A DNA stretch of 64,000 nt from Comamonas sp. NLF-1-9 (GTDB taxonomy: Bacteria; Pseudomonadota; Gammaproteobacteria; Burkholderiales; Burkholderiaceae_C), in assembly GCF_019195435.1 (NCBI RefSeq), contig NZ_CP078069.1, positions 682,001-746,000 on the forward strand, given 5' to 3'. A model generated the notes under the pieces. It did no database searches. It saw nothing but the letters and a program-made list of their open reading frames with translations, and was not told the DNA's origin. Positions 8,621-59,653 of the stretch are shown one piece after another. A program made the position numbers and the translations under genes. The first letter of the stretch is position 1, and the number at the start of each line of letters is the position of its first letter.

Positions 8621-9430
8621 ATGCCCGACTGGAACCCGGCGCTCTACCTGCACTTTGCGCCGCAGCGCACGCGCCCCGCGGCCGAGCTGCTGGCGCGCGT
8701 GCCCCTGGTTTCGGTGCGCGAGGTGGTCGACCTGGGCTGCGGCCCGGGCACTTCCACCGCCTTGCTGGCGCAGCGCTACGCCGGTGCGCGCGTGCTCGGG
8801 CTCGACAGCTCTGCCGCCATGATCGAGCGCGCCCGCGCCCTGGTGCCGCAGGCCGTCTTTCGGCACCAGGACCTGCGCGCCTGGCTGGAGGCGATGGAGC
8901 AGGGCGCAGGCAGCGAGCCCGCGCCCGAGCTGATCTTTGCCAACGCGACGCTGCAATGGGTGCCGGAGCACGAAGGCCTGCTGCCCCGGCTGTTCGCCCG
9001 TCTCGCCCCGGGCGGCGTGCTGGCCGTGCAGATGCCCGACAACCTGCATGAACCGGCGCACCGGTTGATGCAAGAACTCGCACAGCAGCCCCGTTTTGCG
9101 CCGCACCTGGCGGCTGCGGGGGCGCTGCGCACACCGCTGCTCGCGCCCGATGCCTACTACGACCTGCTGGCCGCGCCGTCTGCGCAGGCGGTGGAGGTGG
9201 ACATCTGGCGCAGCACCTACCTGCATGCGATGGAGTCGCCCGACGCCATCGTGCACTGGTTTCTGGCCACGGGGCTCAAGCCTTATGTCGAGGCCTTGCC
9301 GGCGGCGCTGCAGGGCGACTTTGTCGACGCCTACCGGGCGCGCATTGCCGACGCCTACCCCGCGCGCGTCGACGGCTGCCGTCTGCTGGCATTTCCGCGT
9401 TTGTTCATTCTTGCCAGGCGCAGACCATGA
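8621..9430 (+). CDS. tam: Trans-aconitate 2-methyltransferase
   Basis: A 269-residue SAM-dependent class I methyltransferase. It opens with DWNPALYLHFAPQRTRPA, very close to E. coli Tam, followed by motif I DLGCGPGTST (residues ~36-45), an acidic LDSS at the end of strand 2, LIFANATLQWVPEH and AVQMPDNLHEP. Tam methylates trans-aconitate, the toxic isomer that forms spontaneously from the aconitase intermediate cis-aconitate. It lies 23 bases after mdh and overlaps the next gene by ATGA. Having it in the same run as acnB makes metabolic sense. Confidence 0.9.
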   Translation: MPDWNPALYLHFAPQRTRPAAELLARVPLVSVREVVDLGCGPGTSTALLAQRYAGARVLGLDSSAAMIERARALVPQAVFRHQDLRAWLEAMEQGAGSEPAPELIFANATLQWVPEHEGLLPRLFARLAPGGVLAVQMPDNLHEPAHRLMQELAQQPRFAPHLAAAGALRTPLLAPDAYYDLLAAPSAQAVEVDIWRSTYLHAMESPDAIVHWFLATGLKPYVEALPAALQGDFVDAYRARIADAYPARVDGCRLLAFPRLFILARRRP

Positions 9431-10422
9431 CCCGGCAGCCCGCCGCCACCCATCCCGCCCGGGTTCTGCTCGGCCCGCAGGGCGGCGCCGCGGTCTTGCC
9501 GGTGTGCGACCACTACAGCGGCGTCGAAGCGCGCATGCGCAAGAGCCTGCAACTGCAGGCCGAGATGACGCGCGAATTCGGCACCTGCGTGTTCGACGTC
9601 ACCCTGGATTGCGAGGATGGCGCGCCCGTGGGCGGCGAGGCCGAGCATGCGCGCCTGGTAGCGGCGCTCGCGCGCGAGAGCGAAGCGGGCGCGCGCGTGG
9701 CGGTGCGCGTGCACCCGGTCGATCACCCCGCGTTTGCGCAGGACATGGACACCATTCTGGGCGAGGCGGCCGACCGCCTGTGCCACGTCATGCTGCCCAA
9801 GGTGGAAAGCGTGGACGATATTCTTGTGGCCGAAAAAGCCCTGCAACGCAATGCAGGCGGGCGTTTGCAGCTACATGTTTTGATAGAGTCGCCAGCGGCG
9901 GTGCAGCGCGCATTCGACATCGCCGCGCACCCGCGGGTGCAGAGCCTGTCTTTCGGGCTGATGGATTTCGTCTCGGCGCATGGCGGTGCGATACCGGCCT
10001 CTGCCATGGGTTCGGCGGGCCAGTTCAGCCACCCGCTGGTGCTGCGCGCCAAGCTCGAAATCGCCAGCGCCTGCCACGCCCATGGCAAGGTGCCGTCGCA
10101 CTGCGTCGTGACCGAGTTCAAGGACACGGCCGCCATGCAGGCCGCGGCCCGGCGCGCCAGCCAGGAGCTGGGCTATACGCGCATGTGGAGCATCCACCCG
10201 GCGCAGATCCGTCCCATTCTCGCGGCGATGGCGCCGGCCGACGCCGAAGTTGCAGATGCCGCGCGCATCCTGCTCGCGGCCCAGGCTGCCGAGTGGGCGC
10301 CGATCAGCGACGCCGGCACCCTGCACGACCGCGCGAGTTACCGCTACTTCTGGCAGTTGCTTGAACGTGCCCATGCCACCGGCATGGCCTTGCCGCCCAC
10401 GGTGGCGCACTGGTTTTCCTGA
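9427..10422 (+). CDS. HpcH/HpaI aldolase / citrate lyase beta-like CoA ester lyase
   Basis: A 331-residue TIM-barrel enzyme of the CitE/malyl-CoA lyase family, which cleaves or forms 3-hydroxy-acyl-CoA thioesters using Mg2+. FDVTLDCEDGAP holds the metal-site acid, VRVHPVDHP the CoA-binding arginine, VMLPKVES the next strand, HVLIES the second metal acid and SFGLMDFVSAHG the downstream loop. There are no citrate lyase alpha or gamma genes nearby, so a stand-alone lyase (malyl-, citramalyl- or similar CoA) is more likely than true CitE. It overlaps tam by 4 bases. The substrate cannot be told from the sequence. Confidence 0.82.
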   Translation: MTRQPAATHPARVLLGPQGGAAVLPVCDHYSGVEARMRKSLQLQAEMTREFGTCVFDVTLDCEDGAPVGGEAEHARLVAALARESEAGARVAVRVHPVDHPAFAQDMDTILGEAADRLCHVMLPKVESVDDILVAEKALQRNAGGRLQLHVLIESPAAVQRAFDIAAHPRVQSLSFGLMDFVSAHGGAIPASAMGSAGQFSHPLVLRAKLEIASACHAHGKVPSHCVVTEFKDTAAMQAAARRASQELGYTRMWSIHPAQIRPILAAMAPADAEVADAARILLAAQAAEWAPISDAGTLHDRASYRYFWQLLERAHATGMALPPTVAHWFS

Positions 10423-56597: not shown

Positions 56598-56606
56598 TGG
56601 TATAGT
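56598..56606 (+). promoter_or_regulatory. Extended -10 promoter of iscR
   Basis: TGG-TATAGT matches the extended -10 TGn-TATAAT, with no good -35 at the normal distance. It overlaps the second IscR site, as expected for repression by [2Fe-2S]-IscR. Confidence 0.55.
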
Positions 56607-56627
56607 CGTACAAATCAGTCGGGTAAT
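56602..56627. promoter_or_regulatory. IscR type 1 site candidate 2
   Basis: ATAGTCGTACAAATCAGTCG followed by GGTAAT. This closely resembles the E. coli iscR promoter sites (ATAGTTGACC...CTCGGGAAT). Together with the site at 56570 it makes two sites in tandem, the E. coli arrangement. Confidence 0.65.
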
Positions 56628-56711: not shown

Positions 56712-57245
56712 ATGCGCCTCACTACCAAAGGCCGTTTTGCCGTCACCGCCATGATCGATCTGGCCTTGCGCCAGAACAGTGGTCCGGTGACGCTGGCAGC
56801 GATCAGCCAGCGTCAGCAGATCTCGCTGTCCTATCTGGAACAGCTCTTTGGCAAGCTGCGCCGCCATGAACTTGTGGAATCCACACGCGGCCCGGGCGGC
56901 GGCTACACGCTGGCGCGCAAGGCCGGCTCCATCACCGTGGCCGACATCATCGTGTCGGTGGACGAACCGATCGACGCGACGCAATGCGGCGGCAGCGAAA
57001 ACTGCATGGGTGGCGGCAAGTGCATGACGCACGACTTGTGGACTGCGCTGAACCAGCGCGTGGTCGAGTTCCTCGACTCGGTCACGCTGCAAAAGCTCGT
57101 TGACGAGCAACTGGCGCGCGGCATCCGCATTGAAGACCGCCCGGCCACGCGGCGCGCGATCTCCACCGTGCCGGTGGTCAAGCCCATCCGCGTGAACGCG
57201 CCCAATTCGGTGTTTGCGCTGGGCAGCGCGGCGTTTGCCAAATAG
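56712..57245 (+). CDS. iscR: Fe-S cluster-sensing regulator IscR
   Basis: A 177-residue Rrf2-family regulator starting [19 protein letters not shown]. The cluster ligands C92, C98, C104 and H107 sit at exactly the E. coli positions ([16 protein letters not shown]). The recognition helix [14 protein letters not shown] and wing [11 protein letters not shown] are intact. Two type 1 IscR sites overlap its promoter, so autorepression by the [2Fe-2S] form is expected. The ATG at 56712 follows CAGGAGCCGTTC. It heads the run iscR-iscS-IscU-like-dnaQ. Confidence 0.95.
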
Positions 57246-57274: not shown

Positions 57275-58501
57275 ATGGCCGTTTCTCCCCCCATCTATCT
57301 CGACTATGGCGCGACCACCCCGTGCGACACGCGGGTGGTCGACGCCATGCTTCCCTGGCTGCGCACGCGCTTTGGCAACCCGGCGTCCAGTTCCCACGCC
57401 TGGGGCTGGGAGGCGCAGGAAGCGGTACAGCGCGCGCGCGAGCAGGTGGCCGCGCTGGTCGGCGCCGATGCGCGCGAGATCGTCTGGACCAGCGGCGCGA
57501 CCGAGTCGATCAATCTTGCGCTCAAGGGCGTAGCCGAGAGCTACCAGCACAAGGGCAGGCATTTCATCACCCTCAAGACCGAGCACAAGGCGGTGCTCGA
57601 CACCATGCACGAGCTGCAGCAGCGCGGCTGCGAGGTCACTTGCCTGGACGTGCAGCCCGATGGCTTGCTCGACCTGCAGCGCCTGGCCGACGCGCTGCGC
57701 GAGGACACCGTGCTGGTCAGCGTGCTGTTCGTGAACAATGAAATCGGCGTGGTGCAAGACATCGCCGCGATCGGCGCCTTGTGCCGCGAGCGCGGCGTGC
57801 TGCTGCACGTGGATGCGGCCCAGGCCACGGGGCGGGTGGACATCGACCTGGCCAGTCTGCCGGTGGACTTGATGAGCATGACGGCGCACAAAACCTATGG
57901 CCCCAAGGGCGTGGGCGCGCTGTATGTCCGGCGCAAACCCAGGGTGCGGCTGAGCGCGCAGATACACGGTGGCGGGCACGAGCGCGGGCTGCGCTCGGGC
58001 ACGCTGCCCACGCACCAGATCGTCGGCATGGGCGAGGCCTTTCGCATCGCCGGGCGCGAGATGCACGAGGACAACGCGCATGCGCGCGCATTCCAGCAGC
58101 GGCTGCTCGCGGGCCTGCTGCCGCTGGGCGAGATACTGGTCAATGGCAGCTTGGACCAGCGCGTGCCGCAGAACCTGAACCTGAGCGTGCCTTGTGTGGA
58201 AGGCGAGGCCTTGATGAGCGCGATCCGCGGCGTGGCGCTGTCCTCGGGTTCCGCCTGCACCTCGGCCAGCGCCGAACCCAGCCACGTGCTGCGCGCGCTG
58301 GGGCGCAGCGACGAGCTCGCGCACAGCAGCCTGCGCATTACCACCGGACGCTTTACCACCGAGCGCGAGATCGACCAGGCGGTGCAGGCGATACGCGAGG
58401 CGGTGCTGCGCCTGAGGGCAATCAGCCCCCTGTGGGAGATGCACCAGCAAGGCGTGGACGTCGACGCGCTGCAATGGGCGCCGGCGCTGAGCGACCGCTA
58501 A
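57275..58501 (+). CDS. iscS: Cysteine desulfurase IscS
   Basis: A 408-residue PLP enzyme that takes sulfur from cysteine for Fe-S clusters and thio-modified tRNA. Catalytic C328 lies in [10 protein letters not shown] at E. coli numbering, the PLP lysine in [14 protein letters not shown], and the stacking histidine in KTEHKAVLD. The C terminus keeps the SPLWEM and QGVD elements that in E. coli IscS contact IscU, so it should still bind a scaffold-like partner. It begins 29 bases after iscR. Confidence 0.95.
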
Positions 58502-58511
58502 ACTCGCCGCA

Positions 58512-58916
58512 ATGGCGTATTCGCAGCAGGTCAACGACCATTTCGAGAACCCGCGCAATTGCGGCTCGTTCGACGCCGCCGAGCCGGGCGTCGCCACCGC
58601 CATGGTCGGTTCGCCCCGAGCGGGCGAAGTGATACGGCTGCAGCTTCGCCTGCACGCCGACGGCGTGCACATCGAAGAAGCGCGCTTCAAGGCCTACGGC
58701 GCGGCGCCGGCCATAGCCGCCGCTTCTTTTGTCGCACAGTGGCTGGGTGGCAAGAGCCTGGAGCAAGCCCTGGCGCTGGGCCACGCCGATGTGTCCCAGG
58801 CCCTGGCGCTGCAGCCGTCGCAGCTGCACAGTGCCATCCTGGCCCAGGAGGCGGTGCGGGCCGCGGTCGCTGCGCTGTCTGGCGGAGCGTCACGAGAGGA
58901 GAACAGCAAACCATGA
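58512..58916 (+). CDS. IscU-like scaffold protein lacking all cluster-ligand cysteines
   Basis: A 134-residue protein that aligns with IscU along its length from MAYSQQVNDHFENPRN onward. Every functional cysteine is replaced: C37 is A37 in GSPRAGEV (usual GAPACGDV, with D39 now E), C63 is A64 in AYGAAPAIA, and C106 is S107 in QLHSAILAQ. The HscA-binding LPPVK is LQPSQ. Its only cysteine, C17, is not a ligand position. It cannot hold a cluster in the usual way. The frame is intact, 10 bases after iscS, and its TGA overlaps the dnaQ ATG. It may regulate or stabilise IscS; the function is unknown. Confidence 0.85.
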   Translation: MAYSQQVNDHFENPRNCGSFDAAEPGVATAMVGSPRAGEVIRLQLRLHADGVHIEEARFKAYGAAPAIAAASFVAQWLGGKSLEQALALGHADVSQALALQPSQLHSAILAQEAVRAAVAALSGGASREENSKP

Positions 58917-59653
58917 CGAGCAACGCCGTGCGCCAGATCGTGCTGGATACGGAAACCACCGGACTGTCGGCCGAGCAGGGCGACCGCATTGTCGAGCTCG
59001 GCTGCGTGGAGCTGGTGGGCCGACGCCTGACGGGCAACAACCTGCACCTGTACTTCAACCCCGAGCGCGAGAGCGAGGAAGGCGCGCTGCGCGTGCACGG
59101 CCTGAGCAGCGAATTCCTGCGCGACAAGCCAAAGTTTGCGGAATGCGCCGAGCAGATTTTTGGTTACCTCCAGGGTGCGGAGCTCATCATCCACAACGCC
59201 GCCTTCGACATGGGCTTTCTGGAGATGGAGTTCGCGCGTCTGAAGCGCCCGCCGCTTGCCGCTGCGCTGGCGGGCGTGCTCGACACCCTGATGTTGGCGC
59301 GCGACCTCTATCCGGGCAAGCGCAACACGCTCGACGCGCTGTGCGACCGTCTGGAGGTGGACCGCTCGGACCGCACGCTGCACGGTGCGCTGCTCGATGC
59401 GGAGCTGCTCGCCAGCGTCTACATCCAGATGACGCGTGGCCAGGAATCTCTGCTGGTTGCGCCCGGTGTCGTGGACAGCCCGCAGGCGATCGCTGCCGCG
59501 GCGCTGGACCTGAGCGGCTTCGATCTGCCGGTGCTGCTGGCCGACGCCCGCGAGCTCGCCGCCCACGAGGCCGTGCTGCTGCAGATCGACAAGGCAAGCG
59601 CAGGCCAGACGGTGTGGAAACCTGCCCGGGATGCGACGCAAGCTGTGCCATAA
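58913..59653 (+). CDS. dnaQ: DNA polymerase III subunit epsilon
   Basis: A 246-residue 3'-5' proofreading exonuclease of the DEDDh family. Exo I is VLDTETTGL near residue 10, Exo II HNAAFDMGFLEMEF near residue 93, and Exo III HGALLDAELLASVY with the catalytic His and Asp near residue 158. The C-terminal ~50 residues should bind the alpha subunit. It overlaps the IscU-like gene by ATGA, so its translation is coupled to an Fe-S operon, and it is followed by tRNA-Val. Confidence 0.94.
   Translation: MTSNAVRQIVLDTETTGLSAEQGDRIVELGCVELVGRRLTGNNLHLYFNPERESEEGALRVHGLSSEFLRDKPKFAECAEQIFGYLQGAELIIHNAAFDMGFLEMEFARLKRPPLAAALAGVLDTLMLARDLYPGKRNTLDALCDRLEVDRSDRTLHGALLDAELLASVYIQMTRGQESLLVAPGVVDSPQAIAAAALDLSGFDLPVLLADARELAAHEAVLLQIDKASAGQTVWKPARDATQAVP

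Follow-up and report, generated by a model that had tools for sequence, protein, structure and literature searches.

An IscU-like protein without ligand cysteines, kept beside iscS in a Comamonas lineage with a SUF system

The gene that follows iscS in Comamonas sp. NLF-1-9 is an orthologous remnant of the scaffold gene iscU in a lineage that carries a SUF system. Its product lacks the three ligand cysteines and probably does something other than cluster building, since selection still keeps it. The reading that we prefer, to which we give a probability of about one half, is that the former scaffold survives as a partner of IscS without a part in cluster assembly. As a scaffold IscU is strongly conserved, and what it does to the desulfurase is difficult to tell apart from its part in cluster building. 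The features of the locus, which runs from iscR through iscS and the iscU-like gene to dnaQ, are given below in coordinates of the window, that is, the whole stretch of 64,000 nucleotides that was analysed.

56602..56626, forward strand: IscR type-1-like operator upstream of iscR, four mismatches to the E. coli consensus
56712..57245, forward strand: iscR, Rrf2 regulator (TIGR02010, 211.7 bits, over the cut-off)
57275..58501, forward strand: iscS, cysteine desulfurase that retains its active-site Cys and the SPLWEM tail (NF010611, 639.7 bits, over the cut-off; TIGR02006, 634.0 bits, just under 643.2)
58499..58504, forward strand: TAAACT box, candidate -10 element of a leaderless promoter, 7 nt before the ATG of the iscU-like gene
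58512..58916, forward strand: iscU-like gene, 134 aa, ATG to TGA, ligand-cysteine-free IscU-like protein
58894..58901, forward strand: GAGAGGAG, likely dnaQ Shine-Dalgarno sequence within the 3' end of the iscU-like gene, read directly
58913..58916, forward strand: ATGA overlap of the iscU-like stop and the dnaQ start
58913..59653, forward strand: dnaQ, DNA polymerase III epsilon subunit (NF004316, 303 bits, over the cut-off), overlapping the iscU-like gene

The protein resembles IscU (TIGR01999; E. coli IscU, human ISCU2) in fold family, in length and in its place after iscR and iscS. Its residues 1-121 align to E. coli IscU, PDB 2l4x and others (phmmer, E = 8.7e-36), and H105, Y3, G38, V40 and the RFKxYG strand are kept. 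Unlike IscU, however, it shows the replacements C37A, D39E, C63A and C106S in this alignment, and LQPSQ stands where E. coli IscU has LPPVK (99-103); counted along the protein itself, the residues at the ligand sites are A37, A64 and S107. It passes the NifU_N model (PF01592) with 107.1 bits against a gathering cut-off of 22, but falls under the IscU equivalog cut-off (TIGR01999, NCBIfam; 116.1 against 192.4 bits), as do all nine further proteins scored from the clade described below (123.0-167.5 bits). SufU (TIGR01994) belongs to the same superfamily, but the true SufU sits in the suf operon of the same genome, and the iscU-like protein, with no cysteine at the ligand positions, scores 37.7 bits against that equivalog cut-off of 92.5. 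Where a scaffold has three ligand cysteines and Asp39 this protein has A, A, S and E, the LPPVK segment is gone, and, unlike in IscU systems, HscA, HscB and CyaY were not found in its genome. Because the ligands are missing, HscA and HscB do not exceed their cut-offs and the equivalog cut-off is failed, the protein is not a conventional scaffold. The first-pass annotation had called the residues A/A/S, D39 to E and LPPVK to LQPSQ, had concluded that the protein cannot be a scaffold, and had pointed to tight linkage with iscS and ATGA coupling to dnaQ. The alignment to E. coli IscU confirms the calls, the conclusion is borne out on the three grounds just given, and the linkage is seen in a gap of 10 nt behind iscS and the overlap at 58913-58916. 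Its suggestions of an IscS-binding modulator, a decoy or a partner that steers sulfur away from cluster assembly stay hypothetical. It had proposed a search for homologs with A/A/S at the ligand positions, and one was found in Comamonas flocculans.

This closest relative, P0002 of C. flocculans, is 87% identical and has the same A/E/A/S and LQPSQ. Since the same four residues and LQPSQ occur there, sequencing error, misassembly and chance are ruled out for the window protein. The protein search among 1400 candidates yielded, together with the window protein itself, 18 proteins with E values up to 1e-3, and in an alignment of 134 proteins only the window protein and P0002 lack all three ligand cysteines. 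The top profile matches, P0019 and P0020, were set aside, as no ligand cysteine is missing from them and both contain an internal repeat of a C-terminal piece, so that the third cysteine is present twice; this repeat may be real or an artefact of assembly. Among distant metagenome IscU-like proteins, P0016 and P0018 lack only the equivalent of C37 and P0017 only that of C106; all three lie outside the clade and were excluded from its analysis.

The loss of ligands is genus-wide and graded, which the first-pass annotation had missed, as it had the presence of SUF. An intact iscU-like gene is found in eight of nine genus genomes, and in all eight, the window included, the gene order is uvrB-iscR-iscS-iscU-like (uvrB in the genus loci named by reading) and the frame and a length of 131-134 aa are kept. 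In the ninth, G103, iscS and dnaQ are missing as well; the absence of the iscU-like gene there is likely due to an assembly gap, and this genome was discarded as a case of loss. C37 and C63 are absent from all eight copies and C106 is retained in six: G095 and G104 have T37 and S63, G100 has A37 and S63, G101 has Q37 and S63 and also retains D39, G105 has S37 and S63, and G106 has D37 and S63. Between the iscU-like gene and dnaQ, iscA is present in G100, G101, G105 and G106 and absent from the window's own genome (G000), G102, G095 and G104, while hscB, hscA and fdx occur at that place in none of the eight loci; in the canonical relative G009 it holds 3.3 kb that read as iscA-hscB-hscA-fdx. 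In a tree built from four flanking proteins, G000 and G102 group with G095 and G104 (support 93) and G101 branches off first. On this topology a single loss could account for the absence of iscA, and one further event, in the ancestor shared by G000 and G102, for that of C106, K103 and LPPVK.

Eighteen cysteine-poor sequences form one clade (support 99) with no canonical member within. This set consists of the eight genus copies and ten metagenome proteins (P0003-P0005, P0021, P0023-P0027 and P0033) and was compared with 28 canonical family IscU proteins and that of E. coli; P0001 is the window protein, P0002 the G102 protein, and P0022 reads as the G105 protein, all three being duplicates. 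Beyond the genus, 95 family genomes gave a match; the canonical ligands were read in the 28 that scored best, which are not a random sample. The six other genus copies (G095, G100, G101, G104, G105 and G106) and the metagenome proteins resemble the window protein in belonging to this clade and in the loss of C37 and C63, and those in genomes also share its locus. They differ from it in that C106 and H105 are kept, with K or R at position 103, in all 16 clade relatives outside the cysteine-free pair, Q being found at 103 only in that pair; moreover, four of the six genomes keep iscA at the locus. The iscU gene tree groups G000, G102, G101 and P0005 on long branches, and because this conflicts with the flanking-gene tree its inner order is not trustworthy.

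Comparison of G000 and G102 provides a measure of selection between two cysteine-free copies. Their iscU-like genes differ in amino acid at 18 codons and silently at 26 (dS 0.35, dN 0.065, dN/dS 0.183), and neutral simulation expects 31-33 amino-acid changes and 0.6-0.9 stops against the 18 changes observed; as few changes arose in none of 2000 neutral runs in each of four mutation settings. A pseudogene is ruled out by these values, and the purifying selection for which the first-pass annotation had proposed a test is borne out. In the same pair dN/dS is 0.081 for iscS, 0.096 for dnaQ and 0.046 for uvrB, and iscR has no amino-acid change; the iscU-like gene is thus constrained, but less than its neighbours. 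Pairs that keep C106 give 0.113 (G100-G106) and 0.244 (G105-G106), and G095-G104 gives 0.226 from very few changes. Six of the 18 changes between G000 and G102 fall within the last 13 residues. Three stretches, picked post hoc (30-44, 54-75 and 100-121; 59 aa), have no amino-acid and 15 silent differences, and a pre-set test for fewer changes near contact and ligand residues in this pair was not significant at four widths (Fisher 0.10-0.36).

The genome itself is a single contig of 3,032,465 bases with a completeness of 100, and it encodes two NifU_N proteins, the iscU-like product and SufU. A canonical IscU hidden elsewhere in it was therefore rejected, the sole other NifU_N match being SufU. 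The proposal to look elsewhere for a canonical iscU or a suf operon led to the latter, a sufBCDSUT operon at about 847.9-853.7 kb (G000:C1) with these members.

SufB, G000 suf operon: 892.5 bits, cut-off 717
SufC, G000 suf operon: 300.1 bits, cut-off 212.8
SufD, G000 suf operon: 167.5 bits, below the cut-off of 222
SufS, G000 suf operon: 469.8 bits, just below the cut-off of 475.1
SufU, G000 suf operon: 144.8 bits, cut-off 92.5
SufT, G000 suf operon: 228.5 bits, cut-off 202.6

A RelE/ParE-family toxin and its antidote (TIGR02683 and TIGR02684; L051:9166-9468 and 9393-9764, forward strand) adjoin sufT in this genome.

Among 100 family genomes SufB is found in 10 and HscB over its cut-off in 94. 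The six without HscB over the cut-off are G000 and G095, which belong to this genus, together with G094, G027, G083 and G093; G083 is 85% and G093 55% complete, and G027 has a partial HscB match. HscB was scored in two of the nine genus genomes, its best match in G000 reaching 28 bits against a cut-off of 46.75, and ferredoxin was judged from the isc locus alone. In G094, a genome of another genus (100% complete; locus L109 around dnaQ), SufB is present, IscU is absent and HscB is below the cut-off, and the ISC scaffold and chaperone seem to have been lost outright beside SUF; seven other SufB genomes carry both an IscU match and HscB. HscA exceeds its cut-off in none of the nine genus genomes, the best match in each (608-618 bits against 708.55) being probably DnaK, and G095 has an additional weaker Hsp70-like match (150.5 bits) in a frame of 855 aa. 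CyaY matches none of the nine genus genomes and, among 14 control genomes, E. coli alone. TusA is found in all nine genus genomes, as are A-type carriers, which lie within the isc locus only in G100, G101, G105 and G106.

In E. coli, the residues of IscU in contact with IscS are Tyr3, Tyr11, Gly38, Val40, Lys42, Lys59-Gly64 and Lys103; the complex was lost with K103E but still formed with Y11A, and IscS without its C-terminus no longer bound IscU (Shi et al. 2010, PMC2854127, consulted in part). Of these contact positions the window protein keeps Y3, G38, V40, K59, Y61 and G62 and shows the changes Y11F, K42R, T60A, G64A and K103Q. At positions at least 95% conserved in the 28 canonical IscU proteins, with the cysteines and D39 excluded, contacts are conserved at 6 of 10 in the window protein against 47 of 81 other positions, and at 56 of 80 against 423 of 648 in the eight genus copies. 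Preferential conservation of the IscS-facing surface was thus tested, by residue counts and by the pair test above, and not found. On the side of the desulfurase, C328 and SPLW are kept in all eight genus copies when compared with 27 canonical IscS proteins, and at six residues in contact with TusA, 41 of 48 cells across the eight copies are conserved. Across these eight copies, conservation of IscS is lower at the IscU-contact positions (98 of 128) than elsewhere (1663 of 1864; Fisher 8e-5), and the changes common to all eight copies there include S312A, I314M and Y390H; judged from these residues, the face of the genus IscS for IscU looks reshaped more than decayed.

The operator upstream of iscR is the sole site with six or fewer mismatches to the IscR consensus in the 64 kb window. 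An IscR-type site with three to four mismatches is found in all seven other genus regions scanned and in the canonical relative G009, and the 20 kb around suf contain none with six or fewer. The window IscR is identical in protein to that of G102 and has C92, C98, C104 and H107, which we take to be its cluster ligands. In G100 (L046) IscR has Gly at C98; C92, C98 and C104 are kept in the other seven genus copies.

The leader of the iscU-like gene is also distinctive. TA(A/C)ACT (TAAACT or TACACT) is found 6-7 nt upstream of the ATG in seven of the eight genus copies (the window, L044-L046 and L048-L050), and in the window the TAA of the box doubles as the iscS stop. None of the eight copies has a Shine-Dalgarno motif before this gene, and G101 has neither motif nor box; by the same motif test, iscU is preceded by a Shine-Dalgarno-like motif at 4-22 nt in each of 27 canonical loci, and none of these has a TAnnnT box near the ATG. 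Only one of the 1811 ATGs of the window is preceded by TA(A/C)ACT at that spacing and three by TAnnnT, which stands there before none of 76 long frames (taken from the first ATG with a limit of 200 aa, the iscU-like gene being shorter). The box suggests a private leaderless promoter of the iscU-like gene, which may have arisen within the genus; the genomes compared are related to one another. At the other end of the gene, G102 has AGAAGGAG at the position equivalent to the likely dnaQ Shine-Dalgarno sequence.

Ligand-free IscU-like proteins beside iscS are not unique to this genus, as is shown by a locus (L003) in a MAG labelled uncultured Gammaproteobacteria, of which 3.3 kb were seen. It encodes two desulfurases, one NifS-like and one IscS-like (386 aa), together with a NifU_N protein and an A-type carrier whose gene is cut off by the end of the stretch, and the feature of interest is as follows.

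L003:2513-2935, forward strand: ligand-free IscU-like protein (NifU_N, 39.8 bits, cut-off 22)

This protein is 34% identical to the window protein, and four matches among 125 candidates, P0135-P0138, are 99, 82, 69 and 60% identical to it; L003 and the nearly identical P0135 may come from one organism. All five sequences have S37 (a position that rests on a gapped alignment), G63, L/I/V106, P105 and E103. Like the window protein, the group has no cysteines at positions 37, 63 and 106, and the NifU_N protein of L003 lies directly behind an IscS-type gene; unlike it, the group is far more diverged and has P105 and E103, and in L003 the neighbouring IscS lacks its tail and an A-type carrier gene follows. 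The L003 IscS ends at RLRQLSPPRPYAA without the SPLWEM tail, which shows that loss of the IscU contacts can go together with loss of the tail that the window's genus retains. A small tree nests the group, with a branch length of 2.6 substitutions per site, within the window clade (support 75); this placement is read as long-branch attraction, so a separate origin of the two groups is likely on the sequences compared, and ligand-free IscU beside iscS has perhaps evolved repeatedly.

Under the preferred reading of a non-cluster partner of IscS, SUF would have taken over Fe-S cluster assembly from ISC, after which the ISC chaperones and ferredoxin would have been lost and the IscU ligands would have decayed harmlessly, leaving iscR, iscS and the iscU-like gene as what remained of the isc locus. 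IscS would have been retained for sulfur trafficking, presumably through TusA. The iscU-like protein would bind at the former IscU site or close to it and modulate the delivery of sulfur from IscS to remaining clients such as TusA, acting by occupying or activating IscS and not by accepting sulfur, and its level would be set by IscR jointly with that of iscS, possibly also by its own leaderless promoter. This reading is favoured by the frame being intact in eight of nine genomes, the single clade formed by the 18 cysteine-poor sequences, the rejection of neutrality, the suf operon in the genome and TusA in all nine, as well as by the C328 and SPLW tail of IscS (8 of 8) and the IscR-type operator, both of which are kept. 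The contrast with L003, in which the IscS tail is gone and position 103 is Glu, argues in the same direction, as does the analogy with E. coli, in which IscU and TusA compete for IscS and the TusA-stimulated activity falls in the presence of IscU (PMC11302665, consulted in part). Against it count the contacts, which are not preferentially kept, and K103Q in the cysteine-free pair; the IscU-contact positions of IscS, which are less conserved than the rest; the dN/dS of 0.183, which exceeds that of iscS (0.081) and dnaQ (0.096); the pre-set test of contact and ligand residues, which was not significant; and the persistence of a ligand-free IscU in L003 with the known IscS contacts gone. A more specific form, in which a pseudo-scaffold or 'IscS governor' without metal or sulfur, made from the IscR operon and a leaderless transcript, would apportion persulfide to TusA-type clients while SUF makes the clusters, is tentative, and we regard it as possible but on balance improbable.

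The stepwise loss of hscBA-fdx, iscA and the ligands, together with a dN/dS roughly double the values of iscS and dnaQ, would also fit a slowly eroding relic, constrained only against becoming a misfolded or sticky protein and heading for loss, as apparently happened in the complete genome G094, with its SufB and without IscU or HscB over the cut-off. This is unlikely, given that neutrality is rejected between two cysteine-free copies, that frame and length (131-134 aa) are kept in eight of eight genus copies, that the promoter-like box is conserved in seven of these, and that the second ligand-free group keeps its frame in five sequences, although two of them are 99% alike. It is slightly less probable still that the fold now serves as a binding module for SufS, SufU or another client: the 59 unchanged residues with their 15 silent differences (a post hoc choice) and the lack of special retention of known IscS contacts would agree with a new partner, but the linkage offers no candidate beyond iscS, iscR and dnaQ, and the gene adjoins iscS in all eight genus copies.

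The C106 and H105 kept in all 16 clade relatives outside the cysteine-free pair raise the idea of a sulfur relay, in which cysteine-poor relatives would carry persulfide on C106 alone and the window lineage would later have lost this ability. By our own reading of the equivalence, C95 and D71 of human ISCU2 correspond to C63 and D39 of E. coli IscU. The ISCU2 variants C95S and D71A show persulfide at background only (PMC11021402, consulted in part), so C106 alone may not work. The window protein, which has Ser at that position, cannot relay sulfur through ligand cysteines, and by this analogy such a relay is doubtful in the relatives that keep C106; the idea as a whole is improbable. Finally, the ATGA overlap and the dnaQ Shine-Dalgarno sequence inside the iscU-like gene in G000 and G102 might mean that the frame is a passenger of translational coupling, kept so that translation up to the ATGA starts dnaQ. 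Such a passenger would show near-neutral amino-acid changes, which the simulations reject, and in four of eight genus genomes iscA separates the gene from dnaQ and the gene is still kept, making this explanation very improbable.

In the literature searched (titles and the starts of abstracts, with most subscription journals outside), no cysteine-less, degenerate or paralogous IscU is described, and the same kind of search for IscU with Comamonas and SUF gave no fitting description; the consulted part of PMC10631705 holds nothing on a cysteine-less IscU. In the lineage described here the cluster-building part of IscU has seemingly been removed by evolution and the rest left, with the steps visible in living relatives, and the locus shows what remains when one Fe-S assembly system replaces another. 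If the iscU-like protein still controls IscS, it would be a natural separation-of-function form for studying how IscU acts on cysteine desulfurases in the absence of metal and sulfur.
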